NCBI RefSeq assembly: GCF_016586355.1
Contig: NZ_BLYI01000031.1
Location: forward strand, 1-64,000
Source of the DNA: Anaerostipes butyraticus
Lineage (GTDB): Bacteria > Bacillota > Clostridia > Lachnospirales > Lachnospiraceae
DNA: 64,000 nucleotides
Direction of reading: 5' to 3'
In this document: positions 1,350 through 44,146 of the stretch, piece by piece
Layout of the letters: the number at the start of each line of letters is the position of its first letter
Numbering within the stretch: the stretch's first letter is position 1
Position numbers and translations under genes: made by a program
Notes under the pieces: model-generated
Told to the model about the DNA's origin: nothing
The model's database searches: none
Seen by the model: the letters and a program-made list of their open reading frames with translations, nothing else

Positions 1350-1444
1350 CCAGTTCATTTTATTTTCTATTAGACAAAGATAACCTACCATGTTACTATG
1401 ATTTTAAATTCAAACAGAAAATCAGAAAAATGGAGGATAGATTC

Positions 1445-4793: not shown

Positions 4794-4822
4794 TTGTATT
4801 TTATATGCTGATAAGATATAGT
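4794..4822 (+). promoter_or_regulatory. Promoter of the 14-gene envelope/GTPase operon
   Basis: TTGTAT (4794-4799), 17 bases, TATAGT (4817-4822). It lies 60 bases upstream of the first start codon. Genes from 4882 to 22054 then run on one strand with gaps of at most ~27 bases or with overlaps, and no internal terminator is visible. Confidence 0.65.
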
Positions 4823-4881
4823 AGTATAAGAATAAAATGCCAGAGAAATCGACATTTTTAGAGGAGTGTGGAGGAAAGCAG

Positions 4882-6546
4882 ATGGATAACTATAAGAAGA
4901 GAATCAGTACATTGAAGATCATCATCCTGCTGATGTTTATAATTACGGTATTTGTAACGCTGCAGTTTGATTACGGAATGATGGAGCTGGTGATCAATAC
5001 AGTGTTTTTAGGCGCAATGGCCCTTATGACCCGGTATGCGCTGCAAAACGGACTGGATCATATGAATGCCTATATAAAAGATATGGAAACCATGATAAAA
5101 GAACTGGAAGAAAGCAGGGACGACTGCGAAGGCGACAAAGAAAAACTGGAAGCCAGGATTCTTGGTATCGATGCATTTATAGAAGATCAGGATATGAAGG
5201 AACAATATGAAGCTTACTGTGAAGCGTACCGCAGGAAAGGCGCGGCAGAATGCAGTATTACAGACTTTTTTAATTTTGATCAGCTGACGGAAAATCTGTC
5301 TTTAAGATTTTGTCAGATCCTTCCGGGGCTTATGACGGCTATGGGAATTCTGGGAACTTTTCTCGGACTTGCGATTGGGCTGACAAATTTTGATTTCAGT
5401 TCTTCCAAGTCGCTGGGGGAATCCATCCAGGTCTTTATTTCCGGAATCAACATTGCATTCTACACTTCTATTTACGGAATTGTCATTTCCATATATATGA
5501 ACAGTTTTTATAATTCGGTAGAAGAACGGTTTGAAGAAAAGCTAATGAAACTGGAAAAATGCTTTGACAAGCTTGGAATGAATCAGTCAGAACAGAGCAT
5601 GTGGGCGAGACTTTATGAAGAAGAACGGACTCAGACCCGGTCGCTGGATCAGCTGAACAAAGAATTTGCCGGAAATCTGGCGGATGTACTGGGGGAACGG
5701 CTGTCAAAATCATTTAATGCGACTAATTCAAATATTCAGAATCTGATGGGGCAGATTCATGAGAGAGAAAATACCGCTATGGAACAGATGGTAGGCAGTT
5801 TCCTGAAGAACCTCAACCGCAGCATAGAATCAGATTATGCAGCCATGGCTGAGACGGTAGGAAATCTGGAGAAGAATTTTCAGACACTGGGAGAATCTGT
5901 CGGATATCTGAGCCAGTGGCAGAAAGAAATGACCGATGAGATACGAAAATTCGTTGCTGAAGTAAGTGAATCCAATCGAAGAATGGAAGAACTTACAGTT
6001 CAGAATATGGAGCAGATGCGCCGGTTTCATGACACCCTTCAGGGATTTTCCAGGTCCATGGAACAGACCAGCGGCAATTTGGATGAAGTTTACGGCAGGG
6101 AAGAAAAACTTCATGACCAGCTTCAGGAGATGGTCGGCCAGCAGGAGCAGATGGTTCGAAAGCTGGAACAGGCGGCAGGAATCAGTGAGGAACTTGCCAG
6201 GTATCAGAAGGAATCACAGCGTCAGCTGCAGCAGATGGAATCGCTGGCAGACGAGCTTAAGCGGGAACAGGAAAGACAAAAAGAGGATTCTGGTGATCTA
6301 AAATGGATACAGCAGGAAATTAAGCTGGGACAGGAGAAAATCAATCATCTTCTGGATCAGATCAGACAATTAAAACAAAAAGAAGAAAACAGGGAAGAAG
6401 CTGAGAAAATCAAAGAAGTTTTGGAATCTCTCAGCACTGAAATAGAAGAGACAGAGAAGCATCTTCTGGATGCCATTGAGAACACGACACTGCGCGGCAA
6501 AATCCGCAGTTTCGGAAGTCTTTTTAATAAGCAGAAAGAGGCATAG
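4882..6546 (+). CDS. ZorA/MotA/ExbB-like proton-channel protein with coiled-coil tail
   Basis: A 554-residue stator-type subunit. Four membrane segments lie at about residues 12-28, 32-50, 147-167 and 184-207. TM3 carries the family signature LPGLMTAMGILGTFLGLAIG, shared by MotA, TolQ, ExbB and ZorA. About 330 residues of Gln/Glu-rich coiled coil follow (215-545), a layout seen in ZorA and unlike the short MotA or ExbB. The start at 4882 has GGAGG 8 bases upstream; the in-frame ATG at 4837 lacks a site. It is first in the operon and directly abuts its OmpA-domain partner (6547). It probably converts proton motive force into motion or force transmitted by the tail. No flagellar genes are nearby. 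Confidence 0.85.
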   Translation: MDNYKKRISTLKIIILLMFIITVFVTLQFDYGMMELVINTVFLGAMALMTRYALQNGLDHMNAYIKDMETMIKELEESRDDCEGDKEKLEARILGIDAFIEDQDMKEQYEAYCEAYRRKGAAECSITDFFNFDQLTENLSLRFCQILPGLMTAMGILGTFLGLAIGLTNFDFSSSKSLGESIQVFISGINIAFYTSIYGIVISIYMNSFYNSVEERFEEKLMKLEKCFDKLGMNQSEQSMWARLYEEERTQTRSLDQLNKEFAGNLADVLGERLSKSFNATNSNIQNLMGQIHERENTAMEQMVGSFLKNLNRSIESDYAAMAETVGNLEKNFQTLGESVGYLSQWQKEMTDEIRKFVAEVSESNRRMEELTVQNMEQMRRFHDTLQGFSRSMEQTSGNLDEVYGREEKLHDQLQEMVGQQEQMVRKLEQAAGISEELARYQKESQRQLQQMESLADELKREQERQKEDSGDLKWIQQEIKLGQEKINHLLDQIRQLKQKEENREEAEKIKEVLESLSTEIEETEKHLLDAIENTTLRGKIRSFGSLFNKQKEA

Positions 6547-7329
6547 ATGAGCAGGCAGAAAAAGAAAAGAAACAGGAAGTTCATGGATTACTGGCAGTCC
6601 TATTCCGATATGATGGCAGCTTTGCTGCTGGTTTTTATTTTGATTGTGTTTGCGGTAATCCAGAAACTGCAGACACAGCAGGATGAGATTGCGGCAAAAC
6701 AGGCAATCGTGGACAAGCAGAAAATTACGATCGAGAAACTGGGCGGAGACGCAGACGGAGGCACGACAAAATTTGAAGAGATGGAAAAAAAGGTTTCCAG
6801 GATCATCGGAGTAAAAGCAGAGATCATAGAAGATCTCCGAAAGGAACTGGACAATGTAAATCTGGAAATTGATGGTCAGACCGGAGCGATCCAGTTTGAT
6901 TCCGAGATTTTGTTTGATACAGATAAATCGAATCTGAAAGCCTCCGGAAAGAAAGAACTGGACCGGTTTATGAAAGGATATTTTAAAGTCCTGCTGAATG
7001 ATAAATTTAAAGATAACATTGCGGAAATCATTGTAGAAGGTCATACGGATACGGATGGAACTTACGATTATAATCTGGAATTGTCACAGAAACGTGCGTT
7101 AAGTGTGGCCAGATACTGTTTAAACAGTAAAAATCTGGATCTGGATTCAGATCAGAAACAGGATCTAAGAAGGATGATTACGGCCAATGGGCGTTCATTC
7201 AGCAATCCAATCCGCAAAAGTGACGGAAGTATTGACAAGAACAAGTCCCGCAGGGTTGTATTCCAGTTCCGTCTGAAAGATGATGAAATGATACAGCAGC
7301 TGCAGGATATATTAAACGGAAAAGAATAA
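6547..7329 (+). CDS. ZorB/MotB-like stator partner with OmpA peptidoglycan-binding domain
   Basis: 260 residues: a short basic cytoplasmic start, one membrane helix (about 17-38) and a C-terminal OmpA-like domain (about 112-255). Asp21 in WQSYSDMMAALLLVF sits where MotB and ZorB carry the proton-binding aspartate. The OmpA domain shows FDSEILFDTDKSNL, EGHTDTDG, YNLELSQKRALSVARY and NKSRRV, the residues that hold meso-diaminopimelate in peptidoglycan. It starts at the base after the upstream stop. With the ZorA-like protein it should form a stator anchored to the cell wall. Confidence 0.87.
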   Translation: MSRQKKKRNRKFMDYWQSYSDMMAALLLVFILIVFAVIQKLQTQQDEIAAKQAIVDKQKITIEKLGGDADGGTTKFEEMEKKVSRIIGVKAEIIEDLRKELDNVNLEIDGQTGAIQFDSEILFDTDKSNLKASGKKELDRFMKGYFKVLLNDKFKDNIAEIIVEGHTDTDGTYDYNLELSQKRALSVARYCLNSKNLDLDSDQKQDLRRMITANGRSFSNPIRKSDGSIDKNKSRRVVFQFRLKDDEMIQQLQDILNGKE

Positions 7330-7356
7330 GGCTGACTTTGAACTGTTGGAGAGGGA

Positions 7357-9360
7357 ATGCAAATGAAGAAATTGTCAAAAAGAGAATTAATAGAAAGTTT
7401 TCGAAAAATAAAAAAGGAAACGGTCTTATGGCTGGTCATTTTATATGAGGGCCTGCTTTTGGTGCCTGCCCTGGTAAAAGGAGTCAAGGGAAGCGGAAAT
7501 AGCGCCTCATATTTTGGCTATCACTACCTGGAATTTTTTCTGATTCTTGCGCTGGGGACCATTCTTTTTTATTTTGTGACTTTGTACATACTGGAGGGAA
7601 ATCAGAAAATTGTTCTGTATTCTTCCATTCTCCTGACCTGGGGCGTTTTTATGGAACTTCTCCTGTTGTTTCCGGGAGATGATGATCTGAATTCAGGGTT
7701 TATTATGAGAAATATTATACTTCTGCTGGCATCCTATGTTTCGGCGGTGCTGGCAGGAATTCTGTTTATTAAAATAAGAAGATTCCGGCAGGACAGCTTT
7801 AGTTTTCTTCTGGCGTGTCTGTCCGTTCTGCTTTACATTTTGCTGATTTTATTCGGCGTTGGTCCGGGCGGACAGGCAAATCCTGAAGCCAGAACCAATC
7901 TCCCGTTTCCGGCAGTTGGTTCCATTCCGGTAACTGAAATATTAAAAGTCTTTTTTCTGATGGTGCTGGTATGCCTTTTATGCAAACAGGCAAGGTCAAA
8001 GGAGGAAAAAAGAAAGCGTCTTATGCTGTCAGCCGTTTATACGGGAATAAATATCATCGGAATGCTGGCGATCAATGAGATGGGAAGTCTGCTGATCGTT
8101 TTGCTGGTGTATATTGCATTTATTGTAATCTACATGCAGGAAATCAAATATTCGATTGCTGTGATTGCCGCAGGAGTCATGATCGTGCTGTTTGGGGTCA
8201 TGGCAGGGGAAATGATGACGGATTCTATTAACCAAAAGATCAGTGAAAAGGAACTGATTTCATGTTTTTATAACCGGGAAGTGCCTTCCGCATCCGGATA
8301 TCACGGCGGCAGCGGAACGATTGAAGATTTCAGGCCGTATCTTGTGGAATATTTTAATGGAAAAAGCAAGGGAAAGGACCGGAAAGTAACAGAGCGAGAA
8401 TTGAAAAAAATCGTAGGAAATGCACAGAAAAACGCTCTCAGCGAAGCGGAAGAACAGGCAGTTGCGGCATTGTTTTCCGACAAGTCTGAGATTGGCTATA
8501 ATGATATGAAAACAGCTGTGGAAGACCGAAAAAATCAGTCTATGCTGATTGCCATGAGTTATCTGCTGTCAGATCAGGATGATAAAGAAGATTTCCTGGG
8601 AACGTATTATTTTACTAAAATATATAATTATTATGTTAATTATGGAGACGCTAATTTCCTTGAAAAATTCTATATACCGAAATATGGAAAAGTAAAAACC
8701 AGATTTTACTGCTGGACGCATCCGGAATGGGACAATGGAGACTCCGGATATCAGAATTACCGGGCGAGAGCCGGAGTCCGGGATGGCGGGCTTTTTGGCA
8801 AAGACTCTGCTGAAGTCAGTACGGTGCCGAATGCGGATTCTGATATGATTTTTGTTGCCATGTCAGAAATGTTTGGAAATATTTGTCCGGTGCTGCTGCT
8901 TCTGTTGTTTTTTATGCTGTTTTGGGAAGGTAAAAAGATTGTCCTGTCCACACGGCATGAATATAACAGCGGCATGGCGTTTGGTATTTCTTTTATGATC
9001 TGGATACAGGCTGTTTTTATGACAGCCAGCAATTACGGGCTTTTTCCGATTTTTGGAATGCCGATTCCATTTATTTCCAACGGAGGAGCTTCCAAATGTG
9101 TGACCATGGCAATGATTGGAATCATGGTGGTTATGTCTGCAGTTGAAATGGAAGAGGAAGCAGTGGAGGATGAAAGAACCAAGAATCGTATGGTAATCTT
9201 ATTCCGATATTATATTTCCCAGCCTTTGAGGCATCTCTGCGGATGTATCTGGGCCTTCATTTGCCAGGCAGTCAGAGAACAGAAAAAAGTGATCAAGGCG
9301 AAGATCAGGAAAAAGCTGAAGGAGAAAAAGGATGGAAATGCGCACAGGAGGAAGCGGTAA
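7357..9360 (+). CDS. SEDS-family (FtsW/RodA/SpoVE) glycosyltransferase with large insert
   Basis: 667 residues, against about 400 for FtsW or RodA. About ten membrane helices. The SEDS motifs are present: GSIPVTEILK (the QPSE-K motif), SGYQNYRARAGVRDGGLFGK, PNADSDMIFVAMSEMFG, and MPIPFISNGGAS near the end. In HPEWDNGDSGYQ, Asp459 aligns with the catalytic Asp of FtsW (D297) and RodA, so polymerase activity is likely. An insert at about residues 290-450 sits in the extracytoplasmic loop before this motif, and a basic 60-residue tail follows the last helix. An alternative ATG at 7363 is equally well placed. It should polymerise lipid II together with the PBP at 17332. Confidence 0.88.
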   Translation: MQMKKLSKRELIESFRKIKKETVLWLVILYEGLLLVPALVKGVKGSGNSASYFGYHYLEFFLILALGTILFYFVTLYILEGNQKIVLYSSILLTWGVFMELLLLFPGDDDLNSGFIMRNIILLLASYVSAVLAGILFIKIRRFRQDSFSFLLACLSVLLYILLILFGVGPGGQANPEARTNLPFPAVGSIPVTEILKVFFLMVLVCLLCKQARSKEEKRKRLMLSAVYTGINIIGMLAINEMGSLLIVLLVYIAFIVIYMQEIKYSIAVIAAGVMIVLFGVMAGEMMTDSINQKISEKELISCFYNREVPSASGYHGGSGTIEDFRPYLVEYFNGKSKGKDRKVTERELKKIVGNAQKNALSEAEEQAVAALFSDKSEIGYNDMKTAVEDRKNQSMLIAMSYLLSDQDDKEDFLGTYYFTKIYNYYVNYGDANFLEKFYIPKYGKVKTRFYCWTHPEWDNGDSGYQNYRARAGVRDGGLFGKDSAEVSTVPNADSDMIFVAMSEMFGNICPVLLLLLFFMLFWEGKKIVLSTRHEYNSGMAFGISFMIWIQAVFMTASNYGLFPIFGMPIPFISNGGASKCVTMAMIGIMVVMSAVEMEEEAVEDERTKNRMVILFRYYISQPLRHLCGCIWAFICQAVREQKKVIKAKIRKKLKEKKDGNAHRRKR

Positions 9361-10063
9361 CTGGAAACTGACCAAGTACAGGATCCGGCAGTATCTTATG
9401 GAAATGAACCGGGAAGACAGAGAAAAGATGACAAATCTCTGGAAAAAAACAGATCCGGTTGACCGTATATATTATGAATATTATCTGGATGGAGAGCCGG
9501 GTTACCGGCAGTATATGGACCGCTATGAAGCAAATCAGAAATTTCTTGACCGGATTCGGGAAATTTTCCGGGAAGATATTTTTGAACTGGACGCTGTGAC
9601 AACACTGGAATTGTGGGAGATGCTCACTAAGGATGCGGTAATTTCCAAACAGAATGCCTTAGCCAGAATGAGGCAGAATCTTACTGGAAAGCAGAAAGAC
9701 GGAGTGCGGAAGAAACTGCAGAAATATGCGAATCCTGGAATTGTGATCCGGGAAGAACGCATCCGGATCTATCTTGAACTGCTGACAGAGCAGCAAAAGC
9801 GGGAACGCCAGCTGCAGGAAGCAAAAAAGAGAATCCCGGACAGAATCCTTTCATACTTTGAGACAGAAGGGAACAGGATTTTAGCGATGCATAATGGATG
9901 CAGGATGATAGATTACTGCGTCAGTCAGATGAAATCCTTTCACTTTCCGCAGGAGGAATACCGGTTCTGGAAGGAGACACTGGTGGCGGCTGCCACGGCC
10001 GCATCGTCAGGAATATGGGAAGAAATACAAAATATAGTGACAGAAGAAGAGATGGGAGAATAA
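9332..10063 (+). CDS. Unknown charged helical protein
   Basis: 243 residues, overlapping the SEDS gene by 29 bases. AAGGAG lies 7 bases before the ATG. The sequence is strongly charged, predicted mainly helical, without membrane segments or a signal peptide. Helical segments include YRIRQYLMEMNREDREKMTN and TTLELWEMLTKDAV. I recognise no domain. The tight overlap on both sides (the next gene starts 3 bases after its stop) argues that it is a cytoplasmic component of the same machine, perhaps an adaptor for the SEDS protein or the stator tail. The function is unknown. Confidence 0.75.
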   Translation: MEMRTGGSGNWKLTKYRIRQYLMEMNREDREKMTNLWKKTDPVDRIYYEYYLDGEPGYRQYMDRYEANQKFLDRIREIFREDIFELDAVTTLELWEMLTKDAVISKQNALARMRQNLTGKQKDGVRKKLQKYANPGIVIREERIRIYLELLTEQQKRERQLQEAKKRIPDRILSYFETEGNRILAMHNGCRMIDYCVSQMKSFHFPQEEYRFWKETLVAAATAASSGIWEEIQNIVTEEEMGE

Positions 10064-10065
10064 TG

Positions 10066-11796
10066 ATGAAAGGAAGCATGAAGATAAGAAAAAGACGGTT
10101 CAGAGCGCTAATCATGCTGTTCTTGACATTGGCACTGGCTCTGTCGGCAGGCACGGCGGAACTCCGGGCGGACGAAAGCTATCCGTTTGAAAAATATTAC
10201 AATCCGGAAGAAGATGGATGGGCCAATGAGGAACGCGTCAATATGGATGGAGAGCTCAGTTTTACAGTTCCGGACATGAGCGTCCGGTCCATGGATTTGA
10301 TCGTGTATGGCACCGGAAGTCCGAAACTTCAGGAATTAAGGGATGAAAAAGGCCGTCAGATTGCCTTTAAGGAAAAACATACAGATGATGAGTCATATGC
10401 TTATTATACGGTATCAGATGTATCGGAAGGAGACTGGAATCTGACTGTCACATCAACAGATATGACCAGTACAAAAGTATATATTATTTATAACAGCGCA
10501 ATTACGGCACGGTATACGATCGAACAGGAAATCGGCAATCCGGACAGCGGATACTATCAGGCACTGATTCGTCTGTATAATACCAATGATAAGCCGTTAA
10601 AACTTACCAACCGGAAGGTAGAGTATCTGGTGGATGACCGGTCTTTGATGAGTGAGACAGAGAAAAACGATGATTTTAACTGCTATCTGGGCGCAGCCGG
10701 ACTGGATGAAGATGACATGGAAATGCTTGGTGATCATTATTCTTTTCATGTTACGGCAACAGCAGAAGATGGTTCCATTGTTCTGCTGAAAAGCAGGCAT
10801 GCTTCAGGCAGCGAATTTGATGATATTAAGGATGAATATAATCCGTCCTGGTGGCAGAGGTTCCGGGCAAAACCGGCAGGGGAACAGAGAAATATTATTA
10901 TGCTGATGGTGCTGCTCCTGATCATTGCAGCAGTCCTTGTTATGTCTTTCAGAAAAAGCCGTTTTTGGGAGAAGAAAAAAATCCAGGACGACACAGAGAA
11001 GAAAAAACGATATGAATCAGCCGTAAAAAATATGAAAGACGCAGAGGTTGATCTGAAACGTTTTAAAGAAACGGCTAAAGACATAGAAAATCTTCTGAAA
11101 AAGCTTGAGCCTTATTCATATCTGGCAGAGGGAAGCATACCGCAGAGACAGCGTATGAAGTACAGTAATATGCTGCAGCCGGAATTTCAGGACGAAATAG
11201 AAAAGACATACCGCAGAGCAGATGAAAAGATGAGCGAATGGACCAGGGCACAGGAGACAAAGCGGAAACTTCCGGCAGATGAAGAAGAAAAGGCTCTGCG
11301 TAATATTTCCAAACGCCGCAGGATCATTCAGGAAAATGCAGAAGATCTGGCAAAATACAAGTCTCTTCTCAAAGCTCTGAGTGATGAAATCGAGAGATAT
11401 CAGGGTTATAGGATATACCGGGATATTTATATTCTGGTTCAGAGTGAAGGATGCAGATATTATGGAAGCATTGTCGCTAAGGATCTGGGACTGCCAAGAA
11501 AATCAGGCATTCAGAACCTGAATTCCCAGAAAATGAAAGAAGAAAAAGGAGTCCGGAAAGTTCAGTTTTGCGAATTCGATTTTGAAGGGCTGGTTATGGG
11601 AATCGGCGTGACATCTGATGAGGAGCAGCAGGAAATCATATTATTCTCCAACCGGAGATTAAGGAGTACTATGGCAGATGATCTGGAAGATATGGAAGTG
11701 AAATCAGTCCTTGGTCCGTATCAGTACCGCGGCATAGAAGGGCTGGATCTGTATGCCGGCAGTCCTGAAACTGTGTTCCGGATTGTCAGACAGTAG
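10066..11796 (+). CDS. Unknown membrane-spanning protein: exported domain plus cytoplasmic coiled coil
   Basis: 576 residues. A signal peptide or anchor lies at about 1-35 (RKRRFRALIMLFLTLALALS, with a possible cleavage site after ELRA). An extracytoplasmic beta-rich region follows (about 36-275), then a membrane helix at 276-296 and a charged helical region to about 480. The C-terminal domain contains EFDFEGLVMGIG. The start is chosen at 10066, with GGAG 7 bases upstream; ATGs at 10063 and 10078 are also possible. The layout suits a transmembrane relay between a wall-side event and the cytoplasmic GTPase or kinase proteins encoded next. No known family is recognised. Confidence 0.75.
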   Translation: MKGSMKIRKRRFRALIMLFLTLALALSAGTAELRADESYPFEKYYNPEEDGWANEERVNMDGELSFTVPDMSVRSMDLIVYGTGSPKLQELRDEKGRQIAFKEKHTDDESYAYYTVSDVSEGDWNLTVTSTDMTSTKVYIIYNSAITARYTIEQEIGNPDSGYYQALIRLYNTNDKPLKLTNRKVEYLVDDRSLMSETEKNDDFNCYLGAAGLDEDDMEMLGDHYSFHVTATAEDGSIVLLKSRHASGSEFDDIKDEYNPSWWQRFRAKPAGEQRNIIMLMVLLLIIAAVLVMSFRKSRFWEKKKIQDDTEKKKRYESAVKNMKDAEVDLKRFKETAKDIENLLKKLEPYSYLAEGSIPQRQRMKYSNMLQPEFQDEIEKTYRRADEKMSEWTRAQETKRKLPADEEEKALRNISKRRRIIQENAEDLAKYKSLLKALSDEIERYQGYRIYRDIYILVQSEGCRYYGSIVAKDLGLPRKSGIQNLNSQKMKEEKGVRKVQFCEFDFEGLVMGIGVTSDEEQQEIILFSNRRLRSTMADDLEDMEVKSVLGPYQYRGIEGLDLYAGSPETVFRIVRQ

Positions 11797-11815
11797 GAAA
11801 AGAAAGGAGTTCCAA

Positions 11816-13297: not shown

Positions 13298-15933
13298 AAT
13301 ATGAATTTAATCAATATTATTATACTGCCGCGCCGGATCTTTTCAATAAAAGCAGAAAGAACGGATGGGGAATCTTTGGATCCAGCACGCCGGATCATAA
13401 TATAGAAAATGAAAGAGCGGAACAGATTTCAAAAGACTGGGTTCCGATGAGGCTGGAGGAAGAAAAGGCTTTCCCAATTGAATATGTAATGTATTATGAG
13501 GACCGCTATATTGCAGGAGGCGCCACTTCCTGCAGCACGCTGATTGAGGGGGATAACCGTCCGAACACCTGGACTCATGTGATGGTTCCGGAGAAAAGAG
13601 GAGAAGAGAGCTTTCTCTCCTGTCTTTCAATATCATCTTTTGATAAAGTACAGCGAAAGGATCAGAAAATCCGGCTGGACAAGGTGATGGTTCCCTATGA
13701 CAGCGAACTAGAGTCCAGATCCGGATTAAAAAGCTGGCAGGAAGAATGCAGCGATGCTTATTTCCTGAAGATGCTTCTTTCTGGTTTTTCCGGATCAAAA
13801 AGAATTCTGATCACAGACCGGGATCTGTCAGAGGATGACTTTGAAGCATATCAGCTGCTTGCAAGAAAAATGATGTATCATATTTATTACATGATGCCAG
13901 GCTGCTGGAGAAAGGAGCTGAATTTTATTGCTCCAATGATGCCGAAATATTTCCGCCTTTCTTCAGAGAAACCTAAGGGGGCAAGATTTTATTTTGGTCC
14001 GGAAGATCCGCAGGAACAATATGATCTGGTGATTTCCATGCAGCAGGGAAGAGAACTGGAGATCCGGGATTTTTATGATTCCATGCTGACCCGCATGAGC
14101 GAATTGCTGCACGAACACAATGAATTATATGAAGAGATTGGAGAAAGGTTCCGGAAAAGCAATTATGCTGCCAATGAAAAAGATTATATCTGGCATTTCA
14201 TTTTTGAAATGGTGGAGAATGAGATTCCGATTGACTGGTCAAAGTTTGGACTGGATGAATATCAGGAAGCTTACAATCAGGCCTGGATGGACGAGGGACG
14301 AAGAAATGATTTCCTTAAAATCACAGCTGTTTTGCTGGAAACCCGGGAGGATATTGCGGCATCATCAGATTTCTTCAGCATTTATTGCCGTATGATGAGG
14401 GCTTTTTCCAGTGAGATGAATCCGGAAATATGGGAAAAAGTCATACGTCAGGCAGTTCAGTGGATAATGCGGACAGAAGGTATGAAAGAAAACCTGCTGG
14501 AACAGTACCTGCAGATTTTATCAGAAGCAGGTATCCGCAGTGATATTGAAACAGAGATTCAGGGAATCGTAATGCAGGAAAGTACTCAGATCCAGAAAAA
14601 GGCAGGGGAAATTCTGGAGCATCTTACAACGGCAGAAGAAATGGAACTTTGGTGGACCGCTTATTCCCCTTTAAAAGAAGTATTTTCAGAAAAGATAGAA
14701 CAAAAATTGTCTGATCTGCTGATTCATTCAAAGACGATCGAACAAAAAGAGCAGGTTCTGGATCTGGATGATCAGATTTTTGAGGGAAAAGTACGCAGCG
14801 CTCTTGCCAGTCGTCTTTTAAAGAAACTGAAAATCGTCACATTTCAGGATATGAAACAATGGCAGTTATGGGAAACAGGAAAAGAAGAATTAAAACTGCT
14901 GTCTCCGGGAGAATATCAGAAGAAAAATCAGGAGTGGCAGAAATTATTTCTGGATCAGGTCCGCGATCCGGCCTTCCGGGAAGAACATCAAAATGATATC
15001 AGAGAAATTGCCCTGGAACTGGGAACAGACTGGGACAAGATCCAGGAAGAACTGGAAGCGGAAGAAAAAAAACGGAAACAAAGAGAAACCAGAATGGCAT
15101 CAGATGAGGAATTGCTGGAACAGCTTCTGAGCATAAACTATTCTCAGAACCAGGAACAGTACCATTATGTGCTGGACAATATTTCATCCAGAATTTTAAA
15201 GTGTGAGAGCCTGAAAGATGAAGTACAGTTTAATCTATTCTGCTTCTACTATATATGTTATCCGGATGCTTCCAGGGAAAAGAAGGATAAGTTCTGGCAG
15301 CTTTGTACACTGGAATGGTTTCCGAAGCTGGAACAGCTCCTTCAGGATCCGGCGGCAGAGATTTTGAAAGATGTGCTGGATTACGAAGATATGCCTTTTG
15401 AAGGAAGGCTGTTTTTTCTGTATCATAGTTCTATGCAGGATCCGCTGGAAGATGCAAAGAGAGCAATCCGCAGACAGCTGAAAACCTTTTCTCCACCGGA
15501 AAGAGAGACGGCGAAATATTTCTTTTCACAGGGAGACGGGCAGGTACGAAGGATTTTGATTCAGGAACTGAATCAGTCGGATAAGAACCAGATCACTGCC
15601 AATATCCAGCTGATTATAAAAAGCGCATTCTGGATTGCGGCGGCTCTGCTGGTTTATGAAGGAATCGGCCAGCTGGACAAAATTCATCCGATTGCTGCGG
15701 TGGCGGCATGGGTTGTCGTACTGGCAGGATGTCTGTCAAAACTGCTGCTGTCAATAAAGAAGAAAAAAGAAGTGGTTCAGGATGATATGCTTCTTTTTGG
15801 CGGACTTTTGTGGATTTCCTGCGGCGCGGTGATCCGGGCGCTGTGTGGAGTAATCGGAACTGCAGTTTATCTTGCGGTGCTGCTTATTGTTTCCCTTGTT
15901 GTACTTCTGGCATCGAGCCGTCAGAACAGATAG
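13294..15933 (+). CDS. GAP1-like GTPase-associated protein with C-terminal membrane domain
   Basis: 879 residues, starting within the stop codon of the GTPase gene. The opening KYEFNQYYYTAAPDLFNKSR and the following GWGIFGSST are what I associate with the GTPase-associated protein 1 N-terminal domain. The N-terminal ~270 residues form that domain and a long helical middle region follows. The last ~115 residues hold four hydrophobic segments, including KSAFWIAAALLVYEGIG and YLAVLLIVSLVVLLAS, which would anchor it in the membrane. It probably recruits or regulates the GTPase at the membrane. The family call rests on the N-terminal motif and gene pairing and is unverified. Confidence 0.72.
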   Translation: MKYEFNQYYYTAAPDLFNKSRKNGWGIFGSSTPDHNIENERAEQISKDWVPMRLEEEKAFPIEYVMYYEDRYIAGGATSCSTLIEGDNRPNTWTHVMVPEKRGEESFLSCLSISSFDKVQRKDQKIRLDKVMVPYDSELESRSGLKSWQEECSDAYFLKMLLSGFSGSKRILITDRDLSEDDFEAYQLLARKMMYHIYYMMPGCWRKELNFIAPMMPKYFRLSSEKPKGARFYFGPEDPQEQYDLVISMQQGRELEIRDFYDSMLTRMSELLHEHNELYEEIGERFRKSNYAANEKDYIWHFIFEMVENEIPIDWSKFGLDEYQEAYNQAWMDEGRRNDFLKITAVLLETREDIAASSDFFSIYCRMMRAFSSEMNPEIWEKVIRQAVQWIMRTEGMKENLLEQYLQILSEAGIRSDIETEIQGIVMQESTQIQKKAGEILEHLTTAEEMELWWTAYSPLKEVFSEKIEQKLSDLLIHSKTIEQKEQVLDLDDQIFEGKVRSALASRLLKKLKIVTFQDMKQWQLWETGKEELKLLSPGEYQKKNQEWQKLFLDQVRDPAFREEHQNDIREIALELGTDWDKIQEELEAEEKKRKQRETRMASDEELLEQLLSINYSQNQEQYHYVLDNISSRILKCESLKDEVQFNLFCFYYICYPDASREKKDKFWQLCTLEWFPKLEQLLQDPAAEILKDVLDYEDMPFEGRLFFLYHSSMQDPLEDAKRAIRRQLKTFSPPERETAKYFFSQGDGQVRRILIQELNQSDKNQITANIQLIIKSAFWIAAALLVYEGIGQLDKIHPIAAVAAWVVVLAGCLSKLLLSIKKKKEVVQDDMLLFGGLLWISCGAVIRALCGVIGTAVYLAVLLIVSLVVLLASSRQNR

Positions 15934-15945
15934 GAGGGGAACAGG

Positions 15946-16461
15946 ATGTTAGTATTTTTACAAAGACTGTGGGTTATGATCGTTGTAGACGGTTTTCTTT
16001 TGTACATCATAATTCGGCTGCTTCGGGAAAAAACAGAAGTGAAGAAGAAAGAAAAGAAAGTCGGTCCTGCACCGAAACCTGAAAAATACATAGGAAGGCT
16101 GCTGGATTATGAGTTCAGGGATGAACATGGACGGACACAGTCAGGCAGTATAAAAGAGTATCCGTGTCTGCTGGGACGAGGAAGAAACTGTGACACGCAG
16201 ATTGTGGAAACAGAAAAAAACGGACATTATTTTCTGGCCAGAGAATTTATCCAGATTACAGAAACAGCAGATGGATTTCGTGTGACCAGGTGTAAAAAGA
16301 ATCAGAGAAAGCAGGAACTTATTTCCGGAACAGTGGATGGAAAACGATTTAAAGATGAAGTCAGTATGACGTTTAAGTGGAAAATTATCATAAAAATTAC
16401 GCCATTTATGACATTAGAACTTGAAAAGCACAGACGTCGTACTTCTACGATGACAAGGTAG
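15946..16461 (+). CDS. Membrane-anchored FHA-like protein (divergent)
   Basis: 171 residues: an N-terminal membrane helix (about 7-25), a basic Lys-rich linker and a C-terminal domain resembling FHA. YPCLLGRGRNCDTQIV (72-87) resembles the first FHA strand and turn (G-R...D). The expected S..H motif is not clear: the region after it reads HYFLAREFIQIT. Phosphothreonine binding may be weak or lost. It sits 12 bases after GAP1 and 11 before the second FHA gene. The order fha-fha-pbp-PP2C-kinase resembles the actinobacterial fhaAB locus. Confidence 0.65.
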   Translation: MLVFLQRLWVMIVVDGFLLYIIIRLLREKTEVKKKEKKVGPAPKPEKYIGRLLDYEFRDEHGRTQSGSIKEYPCLLGRGRNCDTQIVETEKNGHYFLAREFIQITETADGFRVTRCKKNQRKQELISGTVDGKRFKDEVSMTFKWKIIIKITPFMTLELEKHRRRTSTMTR

Positions 16462-16472
16462 AGGAGAAAGAA

Positions 16473-17312
16473 ATGTTAAAATATATTGTAATTGCCGTGA
16501 TCGTGCTGATATGCATCGGGTTTCTGACCGGTTATCTGTTCTTAAATCGAAAAGAGGATGATTCCGGCCGCTTTGAGAAAAAAGGCGGGTTTCAGGGAGA
16601 CTTATCGGATGACGACATCGAGGAACTGGAGAAAATGAAACGCGGCGGGGAGGAACCAAAAGAGTGTGAAGAAATAATTCCGGATTTTCCGGACGAAAGC
16701 GATGACAGACCAACCCTTTACAGTGAACCGGAAACATCAGAAAAAGATAATTTCAAAGATTTCACCTTTTTTGATGAGTCCGAAGAAGAACCAAAAGGGG
16801 AAAAAAGAACAAAACCGTTTGCCGGCTTTGAGGAAGAAAAAGCGATTCTGGATTACCGGGTTATTATCGGCGGAAAAAGCAGAGAAGACAGTCTTTTCGC
16901 AGGGAAAGAACTTTACCGCATTGGGAAAAACAAGCACTCGGATATTGTTCTGGAGACCAGCGATGACCATGTAAGCAGAGATTTCCTGACACTGGAACCA
17001 GTCAGCGGGAAAAATATTTTCTGCCTGAAGCGGGTAAGAGAAGATTTTGTTCTTCCTGTCTGGTCGGAAGAGGAAGGAAAATGGACGCCGCACCGCGGTG
17101 AGATTCTGTTTGGTGAGGAACAGCAGATGATCATTGCATTAACACAGTGGAAAAAAGTGACGGATAAAAATATTTCAAGGCTGGAACTGGCAGCGCCGGG
17201 ATGCCTCCAGGAGGAAGAACCGGAAGAAACGGCCTATGATTTTGAGGAGAAAGAGCCTGTTTCAGAAGATGATGACCTGGAAATATATTTTGGAGATCAT
17301 TTTGACATCTAA
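16473..17312 (+). CDS. Membrane-anchored FHA-domain protein
   Basis: 279 residues. One membrane helix lies at about 4-24, then an acidic, presumably disordered linker rich in Asp/Glu (28-125), then an FHA domain (about 127-205). The phosphothreonine-binding motif is complete: LYRIGKNKHSDIVL (147-160) and HVSRDFLTL (166-174), i.e. R-IG...S....HVSR. A short acidic tail follows. It should bind phosphothreonine made by the kinase at 19556, bringing the SEDS/PBP or GTPase modules under phospho-control at the membrane. Confidence 0.83.
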   Translation: MLKYIVIAVIVLICIGFLTGYLFLNRKEDDSGRFEKKGGFQGDLSDDDIEELEKMKRGGEEPKECEEIIPDFPDESDDRPTLYSEPETSEKDNFKDFTFFDESEEEPKGEKRTKPFAGFEEEKAILDYRVIIGGKSREDSLFAGKELYRIGKNKHSDIVLETSDDHVSRDFLTLEPVSGKNIFCLKRVREDFVLPVWSEEEGKWTPHRGEILFGEEQQMIIALTQWKKVTDKNISRLELAAPGCLQEEEPEETAYDFEEKEPVSEDDDLEIYFGDHFDI

Positions 17313-17331
17313 GTAAAGGAGAATCAGCAAT

Positions 17332-18750
17332 TTGAAAGATTACAGACGAAAAAGAATTCAAATTATTTCTGCTGTCACCCTTGTGCTGGCAGGTCTCATG
17401 ATTCTGTCTATCTTATGGACAACTATCCGCAATACGACCCATGACAAAACATATGCGAAGCAGCAAAAGGAAGAACTGGTATCCAGAGACAGTAAGAAGG
17501 TACTGTGCGGAGATATTATTGACACAAATGGTACAGTGATCGCGTCTGCCAAAAAAGACGGGAACGGGCAGAAAATCCAGTATGAAGACCCGTATGCCTA
17601 TACTTTGTTTGTAGGACTGACAGAAGGCATGGACAGCCCGGAGACTTATGGACTGTATGAATTGTACCAGGATGAACTCTATTCTACTGTAAAAGATGAA
17701 GAAAAAGGGGCAACCATCCAGATGTCAATCGACAGCAGTCTGCAGAAATATGCCTATAATCTCTTAAAAAAGCAGAATAAGAGAGGATCAGCGATTATTA
17801 TGGATGCGAAGACCGGCGCAGTCAAAGCCTGCGCATTTACGCCTTCAGTAAATGGAAATAATCTTTCGTCTACCTGGAAAGAAGATCTGCAAAACAGCGG
17901 CGGTTTTATCAAGCCGCTGCGGAATCCGGCAGTTCCTGGAAGTATCTATAAGATTACGACCAGTGTCGGAATCCTGGAAGAAGGACTGGAAAATGAAGCA
18001 GTCAAAGATGAGGGAAGTGTTAAGATTGGAAATACGACACTGAGCAACAGTGGAGGAGCGGCTCATGGAAAAATCTCACTTCCGCAGGGATTCCTAAGCA
18101 GTTCCAATGTGTATTTTGGAACCATGGGAGAAAAATATCTGAAACAGGAGAAACTGGAAAATCTTGCGGACCGCTTTCTGATCGGCAAGAATCTGAGACT
18201 GGATTTTGGAACAGTGTCTTCTACATTCTATACAAACAATAAAAAGACGAAATTTACAGATATTCAGAATGCCTGGACCGCTATCGGGCAGAATCAGGTG
18301 CAGCTGACCATTGTCAATGCAGCCATGATTGCTCAGACCATTGCAAATGACGGAATCATGATGAAGCCTTATGCAGTCCGGTCCATTTATCACGGCTCAG
18401 GACAGGATAAGACATATGAGATGAAAACAAAACCTCAGGAATATAAAAAAGTAACAGAAAAAGCAGTCACAGATAAGCTGCGCCAGATTATGAAGAGCAC
18501 CGGTGAGCACTATACGAAACAGCTGACTGGGAAAAATACGATCAAAGCAGGGGGAAAAGAAATTTCCATTGGCTTAAAAACCGGAACCGGTGAGATTGGA
18601 AATAATAAGCGAAACAGCATCTGGATTACATCTATGGCGCCGGCGGATGATCCGGAGTATGTGATTGCAATGAATATCTATGATTCTGATGAGGCAGGAA
18701 AAAGTCTTCTGGGAGATATTATTTCTCTGTACCAGCAGGCAATGAAATAG
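17332..18750 (+). CDS. Short class-B penicillin-binding protein (transpeptidase)
   Basis: 472 residues, with a TTG start supported by AGGAG 10 bases upstream and by a basic KDYRRKR stretch placed just before the membrane helix (10-31). CGDIIDTNGTVIA is the class-B opening motif. The transpeptidase triad is complete: S204-I-Y-K207, S257-S-N259 and K416-T-G. Little separates membrane helix and catalytic domain, and there is no PASTA domain, so it resembles mycobacterial PbpA. It should crosslink strands made by the SEDS protein encoded at 7357. Beta-lactam sensitivity is expected. Confidence 0.9.
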   Translation: MKDYRRKRIQIISAVTLVLAGLMILSILWTTIRNTTHDKTYAKQQKEELVSRDSKKVLCGDIIDTNGTVIASAKKDGNGQKIQYEDPYAYTLFVGLTEGMDSPETYGLYELYQDELYSTVKDEEKGATIQMSIDSSLQKYAYNLLKKQNKRGSAIIMDAKTGAVKACAFTPSVNGNNLSSTWKEDLQNSGGFIKPLRNPAVPGSIYKITTSVGILEEGLENEAVKDEGSVKIGNTTLSNSGGAAHGKISLPQGFLSSSNVYFGTMGEKYLKQEKLENLADRFLIGKNLRLDFGTVSSTFYTNNKKTKFTDIQNAWTAIGQNQVQLTIVNAAMIAQTIANDGIMMKPYAVRSIYHGSGQDKTYEMKTKPQEYKKVTEKAVTDKLRQIMKSTGEHYTKQLTGKNTIKAGGKEISIGLKTGTGEIGNNKRNSIWITSMAPADDPEYVIAMNIYDSDEAGKSLLGDIISLYQQAMK

Positions 18751-18759
18751 AGGTAGAGG

Positions 18760-19539
18760 ATGACAGGGCGGATTTACAGTTTGATACGAAAAAATGGAAG
18801 GGCAGAAAATCAGGATTATCTGTTCTATGAAAAGAAAAAATTCAATGACAACGAAGAAATGACAGTGTTCGGCATTTGTGACGGCATGGGAGGAATGGAA
18901 CAGGGCGGTCAGCTGTCAAGGCTGACCGCATGGACCTTTGGAGCATATTTTTCACAGAAAATCGTGCCGTTTCTTGCAAAAGAAAATGCTGTGATTCCAA
19001 AACGGAAGGAAATCCGGGAAATTCTGGAGAATACGATGGAGTCTGTACAGCGGACGATCGCAGCTTACATAAAGAAACACCGGATTTCCGGCGGCAGTAC
19101 GCTGACAGCCGGTGTGATCTGCAAAAACAGTCTTCATGTGGTCAATGCAGGTGACAGTCCGTGTTATCTGATTGATATGAAAAATGACGCGGTGATTCTG
19201 GTTTCCAATGTGGAAAACTATGCCTATGAAGGACTGGCGAAAGGCATTTTTACGAACAAAAAGTCTCCGGAATTTGAAAGAGCGTCCAGTTATCTGACCA
19301 ATTATATCGGAGCAAAGGATTTTAGAAAGCCGGAAGCACACAGCTATCAGATTTTTCCTGGAAACCGGGTTCTGGCAGGCAGTGACGGGCTGTTTGGAAA
19401 TCTGGATGAGGAGGAAATTCTGACGGCGGCAAAAGATCTGCCGGAAGAAAAAAGTCTGGAACGAATTGCCAGGAGATCAGTTTCCATGGGAGAAACAGAC
19501 AATCAAAGCGGTGTCCTGTGGGTTTGGAAAAACAGATAA
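18760..19539 (+). CDS. PP2C-family Ser/Thr phosphatase
   Basis: 259 residues with the metal-binding motifs of bacterial PP2C: AENQD (15-19), GICDGMGGMEQGG (38-50), GGSTLTAGVI, NAGDSPCYLI, AGSDGLFGNL and GETDNQSG. It has no membrane segment, so it is cytosolic, unlike actinobacterial PstP. It probably reverses phosphorylation by the kinase encoded 16 bases downstream. The ATG at 18760 follows a purine-rich GAGGTAGAGG site. The chemistry is near certain; the substrates are inferred from the operon. Confidence 0.93.
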   Translation: MTGRIYSLIRKNGRAENQDYLFYEKKKFNDNEEMTVFGICDGMGGMEQGGQLSRLTAWTFGAYFSQKIVPFLAKENAVIPKRKEIREILENTMESVQRTIAAYIKKHRISGGSTLTAGVICKNSLHVVNAGDSPCYLIDMKNDAVILVSNVENYAYEGLAKGIFTNKKSPEFERASSYLTNYIGAKDFRKPEAHSYQIFPGNRVLAGSDGLFGNLDEEEILTAAKDLPEEKSLERIARRSVSMGETDNQSGVLWVWKNR

Positions 19540-19555
19540 GATGGGAGGAAGGAGC

Positions 19556-21010
19556 ATGCTGGAACGAGGAAAGATTTTCAAAGCTGGAAATGGAAAAGCA
19601 GAAAAGTTTTTCTGTTATCTGAAAGATGTTGATGATGAGCTGGATTACAGAAAAACGGGAATTGCTTATGAGGCATGCAGTGAACTTGTTGAGGGCAGAC
19701 GAAAGTGTGCAGCCTGCCTGGAAAATTGTCAGGAGACAAAGAAGTATTATATAAAAGCAATTGATAAACAAAAACTTACCGAGAAACGCAGGCAGCTGGG
19801 AAAACAGAAGTTTGAACACAGTGAATACTACGTTTATTTGTGCTGCCATTTGAAGGAAAGAGATCTGGTGGCACTTTTGAGAGATGAACTGATTCCGGCA
19901 TATCTTGTGCCGCCCCAGTATATTTTTAATCTGCCGGAAGGAGAAAGCAGGAATGCTAAGATAACAGGAACGGCCTATCCTTACAGGGGAAGAAGCTGGC
20001 AGGAAGTCCTGAGAGAATGCAGAGGGATCATGAAACCGGAAGAATTTCTTCTGCTGAAAGAAAAAATCATCTTTCAGCTGCTGTACGCAGTGAAGGCTCT
20101 GCATCAGCTTCCGGGAGATCTGGTGCACCGTGATCTGAAACCTTCCAATATCACAATAGAGAAAACCGACGGCAGCTATGATGATCTGCTGGTTTCCATT
20201 ATCGACTGGGACTGGGTCTGCATCAAAGAATCCGCAGATGACCCGTTTGCGGACATTGCAGGAGGAACCAGCGGATTTGCTCATCCCAACAGTCTGATCA
20301 GAAATCAGAAAGGAATTTTAAGTGCCATTCCTTCTAGAAGATGGGATTATTATTCTGCAGCCCTGACCATTTTTTATATTCTGGAAGAACGATATCATTT
20401 CAAAGAAAATGAAGCGTACTGGGAGGATCAGAGAGCCTTTTCCCTCAGGGAAATGCCGAAGACAAAAAAATACCTGGATGAATGCTGCAAAGATGAGGCC
20501 CAAAGCCTGGAATGCGCACAGATGCTTCGCCGGATTCTGCAGAAAATGATGGGAGAAGATCTGGAATACAGAAATCAGTATCAGGATATTCAGGAGGCAG
20601 TTGACGATTTTGAACAATACTTATATGTAAGACACGAAAGAGAGTTTTCCCAATATTTTTGCTCCCGGTATCTGCTGCACAATTCAGATCAGCGTTACTG
20701 CCGGGATCATTTGATGCAGATATGCTGCCGGTATAAAAACGGAGTCAAATCAGAGAATTTCTATTATGTATTAGCTGAGAGGGACGCGGTGACAGTGGAA
20801 CTGGAAGGAAAGAAGACCGTAATCTTATGCCGCTGCGGAACCGAAAATCTTTATGGATTTTTATTATCAGATGACTGGAACTGGAGTGACAGCGGGAAAC
20901 TTACAAAGGATATGAAAGAGAGGGAACGGCTGTCCTGCAGAAATGGAAAGGAAGAGCTGGAAATCTTGTATTTAGCGGAAGGAGCAGACGATGAAACGGA
21001 TTTATTTTGA
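19556..21010 (+). CDS. Divergent Ser/Thr protein kinase
   Basis: 484 residues. The catalytic loop is HRDLKPSN (191-198) and the likely ATP lysine is K67 in YYIKAID. The magnesium loop reads IIDWDW, so DFG is replaced by D217-W-D219. An activation-segment-like GGTSGFAHPN follows. There is no glycine-rich loop of the usual form, no membrane helix and no PASTA region. A C-terminal ~130-residue region follows the kinase fold. KCAACLENC (50-58) is an unusual cysteine cluster. The start at 19556 has GGGAGG 7 bases upstream; an in-frame ATG at 19541 overlaps that site. Together with the PP2C and FHA proteins it forms a phospho-signalling set. Confidence 0.85.
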   Translation: MLERGKIFKAGNGKAEKFFCYLKDVDDELDYRKTGIAYEACSELVEGRRKCAACLENCQETKKYYIKAIDKQKLTEKRRQLGKQKFEHSEYYVYLCCHLKERDLVALLRDELIPAYLVPPQYIFNLPEGESRNAKITGTAYPYRGRSWQEVLRECRGIMKPEEFLLLKEKIIFQLLYAVKALHQLPGDLVHRDLKPSNITIEKTDGSYDDLLVSIIDWDWVCIKESADDPFADIAGGTSGFAHPNSLIRNQKGILSAIPSRRWDYYSAALTIFYILEERYHFKENEAYWEDQRAFSLREMPKTKKYLDECCKDEAQSLECAQMLRRILQKMMGEDLEYRNQYQDIQEAVDDFEQYLYVRHEREFSQYFCSRYLLHNSDQRYCRDHLMQICCRYKNGVKSENFYYVLAERDAVTVELEGKKTVILCRCGTENLYGFLLSDDWNWSDSGKLTKDMKERERLSCRNGKEELEILYLAEGADDETDLF

Positions 21011-21599
21011 TTTTGTAATTGACGCCACAGAATCTGCTGCGGTGAATCTGCCGGCAGTTCATCTTTTTTGTGATGATTTGATCCGGAAAGGATTTCAGGA
21101 CATCCTGCAGAAATTTTATTATGGCATTACCGTATTTTACGGGAAGGAGAAACCGGCCGGAATCTGCCGCTTTGAAGGAAAAATGTTTACGGATCATCTT
21201 TATGAGTTTCATCGTGTTTTTGAAGAAATCGAGTCCGGGTATGGCTCCATGGATGGAATAGACGATATCATTGGAGGCATTCAATGTTCCGCCGGAAAGC
21301 TTCGGGAGAAAGACGGGCTGAAGGTCATGCTTGTTTTTTCGGATTCCTATGTGAAAAAGGGAGGATTAAAGGATATAGGAATCGTACCTGCGCAGAAAGT
21401 CCATCTGTACCTGGCCTCAAAGGAAGAACTGGGAGATGTGGAAATGACGCCGTTTTGGGGAATGCCGATGCTGAATGGACGAAACAGAGTTGATCACAGG
21501 CTGAGACCTAAACTTCACAAACTGTCTGATATTTTTGATGTGCAGAAACGGGAAAAGCAGATGAATGAAATTATTGCAGATATATCTGAAGCAGTGTAA
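20991..21599 (+). CDS. vWA-like protein (degenerate MIDAS)
   Basis: 202 residues, overlapping the kinase gene by 20 bases. The order of strands and helices suggests a von Willebrand A fold: YFDFVIDATESAA (5-17) corresponds to strand 1 with a DxTxS variant of the DxSxS metal site, DGIDDIIGGIQ to the second loop, and VMLVFSDSY to the strand carrying the third metal ligand. vWA proteins often accompany kinases, PP2C and FHA proteins as scaffolds. The fold call is from motif order only and is moderately uncertain. Confidence 0.6.
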   Translation: MKRIYFDFVIDATESAAVNLPAVHLFCDDLIRKGFQDILQKFYYGITVFYGKEKPAGICRFEGKMFTDHLYEFHRVFEEIESGYGSMDGIDDIIGGIQCSAGKLREKDGLKVMLVFSDSYVKKGGLKDIGIVPAQKVHLYLASKEELGDVEMTPFWGMPMLNGRNRVDHRLRPKLHKLSDIFDVQKREKQMNEIIADISEAV

Positions 21600-21616
21600 A
21601 GGAAGGGAGAATATGT

Positions 21617-22054
21617 ATGGGTTTTTTACAGCATTATGAAGAAGAAGGGCGGAAAAGTCTTTCTGTGTGTTTCTGCCTTCTGGATCAGATGTCCTCAGAG
21701 GATGAAGACAGTCTGCGTGCCATGCAGCGGGAAATGACAGAAAGCTGCATGAAAATCCGGCAAAGCTATGTATTTGGAGATCAGACAGTTAATGCGTCAG
21801 AATTTACTGAGTTTCGTCCTGGTTTTTATACAAAGGTGGAAAAAGGGATACAGTCTTACTCGGACAGCGAAGCCCTTTTTCTTGCGGAGGAAATGATAAA
21901 AAAAGAAGTACGGAAATATATCCAGTCGTCAGACCATGCAAACCTGATCGTGATCCTGGGAGAAAGAGCGGAAGAAATGCAGACTGAGGATTACCGGAAG
22001 ATCAGAAACTGGCTGGAACAGGAAGCGGAAACCATTGGCTTTGATATTTTATAA
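21617..22054 (+). CDS. Unknown 145-residue protein, last gene of the operon
   Basis: A soluble, acidic, alpha/beta-looking protein starting MGFLQHYEEEGRKSLSV. Hydrophobic strands such as SLSVCFCLLDQM and HANLIVILG alternate with charged helices. No known domain is recognised. It follows the vWA-like gene by 17 bases and ends 9 bases before a strong terminator, so it belongs to the operon. The HANLIVILGERAEEM strand-loop could indicate another Rossmann-like or vWA-like fold, but this is a guess. Confidence 0.7.
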   Translation: MGFLQHYEEEGRKSLSVCFCLLDQMSSEDEDSLRAMQREMTESCMKIRQSYVFGDQTVNASEFTEFRPGFYTKVEKGIQSYSDSEALFLAEEMIKKEVRKYIQSSDHANLIVILGERAEEMQTEDYRKIRNWLEQEAETIGFDIL

Positions 22055-22062
22055 AAGGCGGA

Positions 22063-22085
22063 AAAGCGGATGCGTCCGCTTTTTT
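22063..22085 (+). terminator. Terminator of the 14-gene operon
   Basis: A perfect 8-bp stem AAAGCGGA/TCCGCTTT with tetraloop TGCG, running into T6. It closes the operon. The 106 bases from 22086 to 22191, between convergent genes, hold nothing else recognisable. Confidence 0.92.
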
Positions 22086-26283: not shown

Positions 26284-26311
26284 GATAACAGTGTTAGCAC
26301 ACAGTGTTATC
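26284..26311. promoter_or_regulatory. Palindromic TetR operator
   Basis: A 28-bp imperfect palindrome with outer arms GATAACA/TGTTATC and inner TGT/ACA steps, placed directly after the -10. It is equivalent in position and half-site (ATAACA..TGTTAT) to the palindrome before the second TetR gene at 43456-43489, which supports autoregulation of both paralogues. Confidence 0.7.
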
Positions 26312-26345
26312 ATTCGCGCGAAACATGATCATGGAGGTAAAAGAA

Positions 26346-26969: not shown

Positions 26970-26992
26970 AAAAAATGCAGAGAAAAGAACAG

Positions 26993-27019
26993 AGCGGATT
27001 TTCCGCTTCTTTCTTTGGT
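26993..27019 (+). terminator. Short hairpin after tetR paralogue 1
   Basis: A 6-bp stem AGCGGA/TCCGCT with a 3-base loop, followed by TCTTTCTTT. It is a weak terminator or attenuator between tetR and the ABC genes. A comparable hairpin lies at the same place in the second TetR locus (44147). Confidence 0.55.
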
Positions 27020-27025
27020 TTGATA

Positions 27026-27041
27026 GTTAGTCTCGGCTAAC
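27026..27041. promoter_or_regulatory. GTTAG-N6-CTAAC box A
   Basis: GTTAG tctcgg CTAAC, 19 bases before the ATG of the first ABC half-transporter. It is one of five sites with the same half-sites and spacing (44189, 47758, 49269, 53955). The half-sites equal those of the DtxR/IdeR iron box, suggesting binding by the DtxR-family protein encoded at 47834. Confidence 0.7.
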
Positions 27042-27060
27042 AATGATATGGGAGGTTGTT

Positions 27061-42956: not shown

Positions 42957-42957
42957 T

Positions 42958-43332: not shown

Positions 43333-43347
43333 AGGTTTTCCTCCAAA

Positions 43348-43363: not shown

Positions 43364-43368
43364 AATAT

Positions 43369-44138: not shown

Positions 44139-44146
44139 AAAAACAT

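Follow-up and report, generated by a model that had tools for sequence, protein, structure and literature searches.

What brings a ZorAB-type motor, a peptidoglycan synthase pair, a GTPase and a set of phospho-signalling proteins together in one gene row? The question is raised by a locus of 14 genes, here called A to N, in Anaerostipes butyraticus. It lies within positions 1 to 64,000 of contig NZ_BLYI01000031.1 (assembly GCF_016586355.1), and this whole stretch of 64,000 nucleotides is referred to as the window. Our analysis reveals that the locus is a conserved unit. Its new element is that a ZorAB-type motor and a SEDS/penicillin-binding protein (PBP) pair are joined to a DO-GTPase system. 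We tentatively propose, at somewhat less than an even chance, that the unit encodes an accessory machine for cell-wall surveillance and repair under GTPase and phosphorylation control. All 14 open reading frames lie on the plus strand (4882-22054). For the start codons as chosen, they are separated by gaps of -29 to +27 bases, bearing out the co-directional, tightly spaced or overlapping arrangement described by the first-pass annotation. Furthermore, the modules are interleaved, with the SEDS gene in place 3, the PBP gene in place 10, and the FHA-like genes between the GAP1-like and PBP genes. Hydropathy predicts membrane segments in 8 of the 14 proteins.

Relatives of the locus were sought in 84,980 species genomes with a 164-residue stretch of the SEDS protein C only, by a scan restricted to exact matches of any one of six 8-residue patterns, which would miss more distant relatives. 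A pattern was matched by 32 stretches, six of which encode a relative, corresponding to five distinct loci. One of these (L073) was set aside as an ordinary, distant SEDS/PBP pair of an alphaproteobacterium. The remaining four, all from other Lachnospiraceae species, have a close SEDS (82-97% identity in the queried stretch) and carry every operon gene that their contigs can show, in identical order. Specifically, all 14 genes are present in three relatives, and the fourth, whose contig starts inside C, shows the 12 genes C to N. Gaps in these relatives range from -29 to +37 bases, two gaps of the fourth being off its contig. The gene order is thus fixed across five species without rearrangement; the same-order search put forward by the first-pass annotation finds it in four further species, and the order is not due to chance. 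Compared with those of the window, the proteins of Candidatus Anaerostipes avistercoris are 75-92% identical and those of the three remaining relatives 34-83%. Between the window and A. avistercoris, the ratio of nonsynonymous to synonymous substitution rates (dN/dS) is 0.049-0.226 over all 14 genes, the lowest values being those of the PBP, ZorB and the GTPase. The motor transmembrane (TM) aspartate, the OmpA domain, D496 of the SEDS protein, the SxxK/SxN/KTG motifs of the PBP, and the motifs of the GTPase, kinase and PP2C are invariant in the aligned relatives. Since the same order is kept in five species and dN/dS is low in all 14 genes, an accidental cluster is strongly disfavoured.

The transcription signals are less uniform. 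N is followed by a hairpin and T run resembling a terminator (22062-22085, plus strand, fold computed), in line with the single terminator claimed previously, but it is not a general feature, as in the relative G899 the next gene follows the operon after 12 bases. The hairpin is not on the terminator-scan list, probably because the scan rule lets the stem absorb the Ts. A single promoter had also been claimed, and this finds no support, as the 36 promoter-like sites are at the chance level (34.1 expected).

The motor subunits are encoded by A and B. A (4882-6546, plus strand; an alternative longer frame begins at 4837) is ZorA-like (PADLOC ZorA1, 8.3e-27; alignment of four sequences), with four TM helices by hydropathy followed by a C-terminal tail of ~340 residues, and is closest among solved structures to the ZorA chains 8qyd and 8qyh. 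B (6547-7329, plus strand) is ZorB-like (PADLOC ZorB1, 3.4e-74; alignment of four sequences), with D21 as an invariant residue of its single TM segment and with an OmpA domain for peptidoglycan binding (4.6e-16); its best solved match is 8vvi, a structure named MotB-like. Beyond ZorAB, the host genome gives no MotA/ExbB-family match at E <= 0.001, so that no other motor of this kind is found there. With the ZorB family model, matches at E <= 1e-20 occur in 109 of 391 class genomes. Close ZorB loci were rejected as relatives of the operon, since none of the other 12 genes was found by tblastn (E <= 0.01) in 20 neighbourhoods of up to 20 kb, 17 of them from the top of the list and three from lower down, some being cut by contig ends. 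Two Clostridia loci are type-I-like Zorya: L038 (105-6026), where ZorB is followed by an EH_Signature protein and an SNF2 helicase, and L039 (93-7511), which resembles it by eye. In three genomes (L040, L041, L042), ATPase and membrane genes of type II/IV secretion (T2SSE twice, T2SSF) lie downstream of a ZorB-like gene; a ~500-residue protein occupies the ZorA position, and one of 391-402 residues lies between the ZorB-like and secretion genes. In L041 (2744-10317), the only one of the three searched with Pfam, the protein in the ZorA position has no MotA domain.

The synthase pair consists of C and J. C (7357-9360, plus strand) is a SEDS glycosyltransferase (PF01098, 1.5e-35; family alignment) whose D496 aligns with D262 of Escherichia coli RodA (alignment to MrdB, 8tj3), which we take to be the catalytic residue. 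SEDS proteins normally have 10 TM helices, whereas C has about 12 by hydropathy, and its two SEDS blocks (7627-8202 and 8695-9141) are separated by a ~160-residue insertion. This insertion (window 8220-8700, about residues 288-445) is conserved, with invariant columns in the family alignment, and its fold is not recognised; from known SEDS topology it would presumably lie outside, near the active site. J (17332-18750, plus strand) is a class-B PBP of the PBP2 type (PF00905, 7.2e-36; TIGR03423, 1.4e-47; family alignment) with a short N-terminal part and invariant SxxK (S204/K207), SSN (257-259) and KTG (416-418). C and J together thus hold the aligned SEDS aspartate and the SxxK/SxN/KTG set that mark a SEDS-class-B PBP pair. 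In contrast to RodA/PBP2 and FtsW/FtsI, which share these catalytic features, the pair has the insertion and the additional TM helices in C and sits in a regulatory operon. Because three SEDS genes besides C occur in the host, the C/J pair is extra and would serve an added function. At another host locus (L087, 7334-10142), a SEDS gene is directly followed by a short class-B PBP gene; the other operon genes were not seen there by eye.

F (11816-13297, plus strand) belongs to the DO-GTPase family. Its Pfam match (PF19993, 9.5e-6; family alignment) scores 25.9 bits, under the family cut-off of 27 bits. However, it gives a profile match of 6e-18 (hhalign) to two DO-GTPase2 proteins, the L064 and L065 GTPases, and has the same CPxC...CHNxLP layout, with split zinc knuckles at C4/C7 and C142/C145. 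From these sequence features, F is solidly predicted to be a DO-GTPase with N-terminal zinc ribbons. The following gene G (13294-15933, plus strand), with four C-terminal TM helices by hydropathy, is probably a divergent GAP1, as its place after the DO-GTPase and a weak match between profiles (E 0.0013, 18% probability) suggest; the Pfam GAP1 models matched none of five G family members. Besides the window, five other Clostridia have a GTPase match. In their five neighbourhoods, with L067 spanning just 3.2 kb and L068 having the look of a chance match, tblastn found no match of the motor, SEDS or PBP at E <= 1. The L064 and L065 neighbourhoods contain DO-GTPase2 and GAP1 domains, L064 also tubulin. 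L064 (507-12231) is a tubulin-type DO-GTPase/GAP1-N2 system (Tubulin_2, vWA, DO-GTPase2, GAP1-N2), ~2 kb upstream of apparent ribosomal protein genes (labelled by eye).

Turning to phospho-signalling, K (18760-19539, plus strand) is a soluble PP2C phosphatase (PF00481, 1.6e-7; family alignment), and L (19541-21010, plus strand) is a soluble Ser/Thr kinase (PF00069, 5.4e-12; family alignment) with HRDLKPSN and DWD motifs, a four-cysteine cluster (46/56/59/63), no TM segment by hydropathy and no PASTA match in Pfam. H (15946-16461, plus strand) is TM-anchored and may carry an FHA fold, as a low-confidence structure model suggests; fold comparison of this model (VIA-align) lists SMAD and IRF folds beside FHA. 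I (16473-17312, plus strand) is likewise TM-anchored and predicted to be FHA-like from a weak Pfam match to Yop-YscD_cpl (four of five family members, best 0.0017) and the alignment; we take Yop-YscD_cpl to be FHA-like in nature. Sequence-profile searches of H, I and E against solved structures gave nothing useful.

Of the remaining proteins, E (10066-11796, plus strand) is predicted to be exported, with a TM segment at 277-295 (hydropathy, family alignment), a coiled coil and a C-terminal beta-rich part. Its structure model has a mean confidence (pLDDT) of 56, too poor for its fold matches to be used as evidence; no FNIII repeat was matched by Pfam in the operon proteins, the ectodomain of E being beta-rich in that model. 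D (9332-10063, plus strand), soluble without TM by hydropathy and of unrecognised fold, evolves fast and is conserved in all four relatives at 34-75% identity. M (20991-21599, plus strand) is soluble with a DxTxS-like motif at residues 11-15 (family alignment), and comparison with one vWA protein (hhalign, E 0.19) does not support a vWA domain. N (21617-22054, plus strand), also soluble and of unrecognised fold, has a conserved GDQTVN motif (family alignment). We know of no counterpart of D, E, M or N in the actinobacterial pstP locus. Taken together, the ZorA-like, ZorB-like, SEDS, class-B PBP, PP2C and kinase labels of the first-pass annotation are solid, as is the DO-GTPase by profile comparison, whereas GAP1 for G and FHA for H and I stand weakly and vWA for M is unconfirmed.

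How new is this combination? It had been stated that stator, SEDS/PBP and FHA/PP2C/kinase modules normally sit in separate systems, and this overstates the case. Linkage of pstP, rodA and pbpA with a PASTA kinase is described as conserved throughout Actinobacteria, fhaA and fhaB lie in the mycobacterial pstP locus, and knockdown of the pstP operon alters the wall and cell length (PMC6554272). The operon resembles this locus (fhaA, fhaB, pstP, rodA, pbpA, pknA, pknB) in bringing together a SEDS protein, a class-B PBP, two FHA-like genes, a PP2C and a Ser/Thr kinase, but its kinase L is soluble and lacks PASTA, and a motor and a GTPase are added. DO-GTPase/GAP1 systems with kinase, PP2C and vWA have likewise been published as a theme, in accounts that are computational predictions (Kaur et al. 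2020, PMC7159879). The operon shares with the DO-GTPase/GAP1-N2 systems a zinc-knuckle DO-GTPase and, after it, a protein with TM helices that is probably a GAP1; with their theme 3 it has in common a kinase and a PP2C, M being only a possible vWA. In contrast, it adds the ZorAB motor, SEDS, PBP and FHA-like adaptors, its G is unrecognised by the Pfam GAP1 models, and it has no tubulin or HSP70 match; furthermore, theme 3 is reported as restricted to Actinobacteria, whereas the operon is found in Lachnospiraceae. With Zorya types I-II it shares the ZorA-type motor with a long tail and a ZorB with an OmpA domain, but ZorC, ZorD and ZorE are absent and the partners are different. Zorya membership was rejected, as Pfam found no EH_Signature, SNF2 or HNH match in the 14 proteins (PADLOC was run on 10 of the 14), while the control Zorya-like locus L038 does show EH_Signature and SNF2. 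The main text of PMC7159879 does not mention MotA, FtsW or penicillin, its lone ZorA being an author name in the references, and the main text of a 2025 paper on MotAB evolution (PMC12505986) does not mention FtsW. In the open-access literature, titles and abstract beginnings gave no paper joining a stator with SEDS/PBP and a GTPase, an absence that is not proof. The operon is not categorically new, since each recognised module has known relatives.

The wall surveillance and repair machine that we tentatively prefer might work as follows. The ZorAB-type motor (A, B) would sit in the membrane, with its OmpA domains gripping displaced or damaged peptidoglycan. By analogy with Zorya, where binding to peptidoglycan, the tail and the flow of ions are each reported to be important (PMC11890865), this grip may allow proton flow and make the bundled ZorA tail turn or shift. 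In the cytoplasm, the DO-GTPase/GAP1-like switch (F, G) could pick up the movement together with exported E, while kinase L, phosphatase K and M would set the threshold through phosphorylation. The TM-anchored FHA-like adaptors H and I would then license the SEDS/PBP pair (C, J) to make new wall on the spot, so that E and the adaptors link the switch to its dedicated synthase. The physical coupling, trigger, signal direction and output of this scheme are what we infer. The phospho-regulated, proton-powered envelope machine imagined from the first-pass annotation stays a natural reading of a conserved unit with kept catalytic motifs; its premise of separate modules had to be corrected. A stricter version, in which a proton-driven, peptidoglycan-anchored rotary motor directly gates or moves the SEDS/PBP pair under GTPase and phosphorylation control, appears doubtful to us. 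Several points weigh against the repair machine. SEDS proteins draw their energy from lipid II, so the motor need not drive them. The phospho-site of FHA domains is marked by SRxH and the arginine of the GR motif; in H, the GRG motif is invariant while the SRxH position reads A/S-R-E, and in I, a lysine replaces the GR arginine, so that both FHA-like domains look partly degenerate from their sequences. Besides, patchy carriage fits defence equally well as repair, and GAP1-N2 relatives have been proposed as conflict systems, not wall builders (PMC7159879).

The main rival is a system of the DO-GTPase/GAP1 conflict class for defence against phages or competitors, with ZorAB as sensor, in which SEDS/PBP would close the envelope or change the wall under attack, or the GTPase/kinase arm would trigger dormancy. 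It holds this place because of its conflict-system relatives, its patchy carriage and the defence-model matches of motor and kinase; we consider it unlikely, though a serious contender, and it is compatible with wall repair. The GAP1 systems are predicted conflict systems in PMC7159879, the motor subunits are best matched by the Zorya models and A by the solved ZorA chains given above, and L matches defence-kinase models (MkoA, 9.2e-14; PD-T4-6, 7.3e-8), although the shared kinase domain probably explains these last matches. In genome samples that differ between searches and overlap, the GTPase profile was found in 3 of 11 genus genomes (the window's own, Candidatus Anaerostipes avistercoris and Ca. 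A. excrementavium) and in 2 of 398 phylum genomes including its own (the other at 3.1e-4), and the GTPase itself in 6 of 391 class genomes including its own (E <= 0.001; best other 6.2e-8). GAP1 was found in 1 of 250 family genomes (E <= 1e-5) and SEDS in 1 of 295 order genomes (E <= 1e-60), in each case the host itself. Carriage by plasmids or phages was rejected: a search of 72,556 plasmid records brought up no GAP1, and none of 42 viral-contig stretches with ZorB patterns was confirmed. On the other side, Pfam found no nuclease, pore or toxin domain at a convincing score in the 14 proteins, though D, E, M and N, which lack a family, may hide an effector, and the five species show strong conservation rather than effector turnover. 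A defence-island setting was rejected, as the 10 flanking genes of the window had no credible PADLOC match (E <= 1e-10), the only matches being those of an ABC transporter to MAD models.

Quite improbable, in our view, is a specialised elongasome for growth or differentiation (cell shape, poles, life stage), in which the motor would drive synthase movement instead of MreB treadmilling. The complete SEDS and PBP catalytic motifs and the effect of the actinobacterial pstP/rodA/pbpA locus on cell length and wall (PMC6554272) speak for it, but the GTPase is missing from 8 of the 11 genus genomes, hence not needed for growth of the genus, and the host has its other SEDS genes. Neighbouring, functionally separate modules that merely travel together, as each is known alone or in part elsewhere, are very improbable given the interleaved and unrearranged gene order.

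The surroundings of the operon vary. A left-flank gene (window 1430-2746), matched in all 11 genus genomes, adjoins the operon in all three Anaerostipes carriers, while a right-flank gene (23025-23888) occurs only in the flanks of the window and A. avistercoris; the window has additional genes between the operon and both. The flanks of the two non-Anaerostipes species differ from these and resemble each other by eye. An empty site was not readable around the left-flank gene in the eight non-carriers, where carrier flank proteins gave three scattered weak or distant matches (two in L116, one in L111). In A. excrementavium (G902; L080/L081 joined, 7820-8567), two small minus-strand genes just upstream of the operon look by eye like a HEPN/nucleotidyltransferase pair. 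Also by eye, the window has, ~20 kb downstream of the operon (41172-43557), genes for a BlaI-like regulator and for a BlaR1-like M56 peptidase whose end resembles a penicillin sensor. Two cassettes similar to each other (26304-30574 and 43497-45965) each consist of a TetR-like regulator gene and, after it, ABC exporter genes, again labelled by eye.

Stator motors and SEDS synthases both rank among the best-studied machines of the envelope. If the motor did directly gate or move the SEDS/PBP pair, this would be the first motor-coupled peptidoglycan synthase. The operon offers a wet-lab entry to the DO-GTPase/GAP1 systems, and its conserved 14-gene unit is a concrete system for asking whether proton flow and mechanical wall sensing control wall synthesis.

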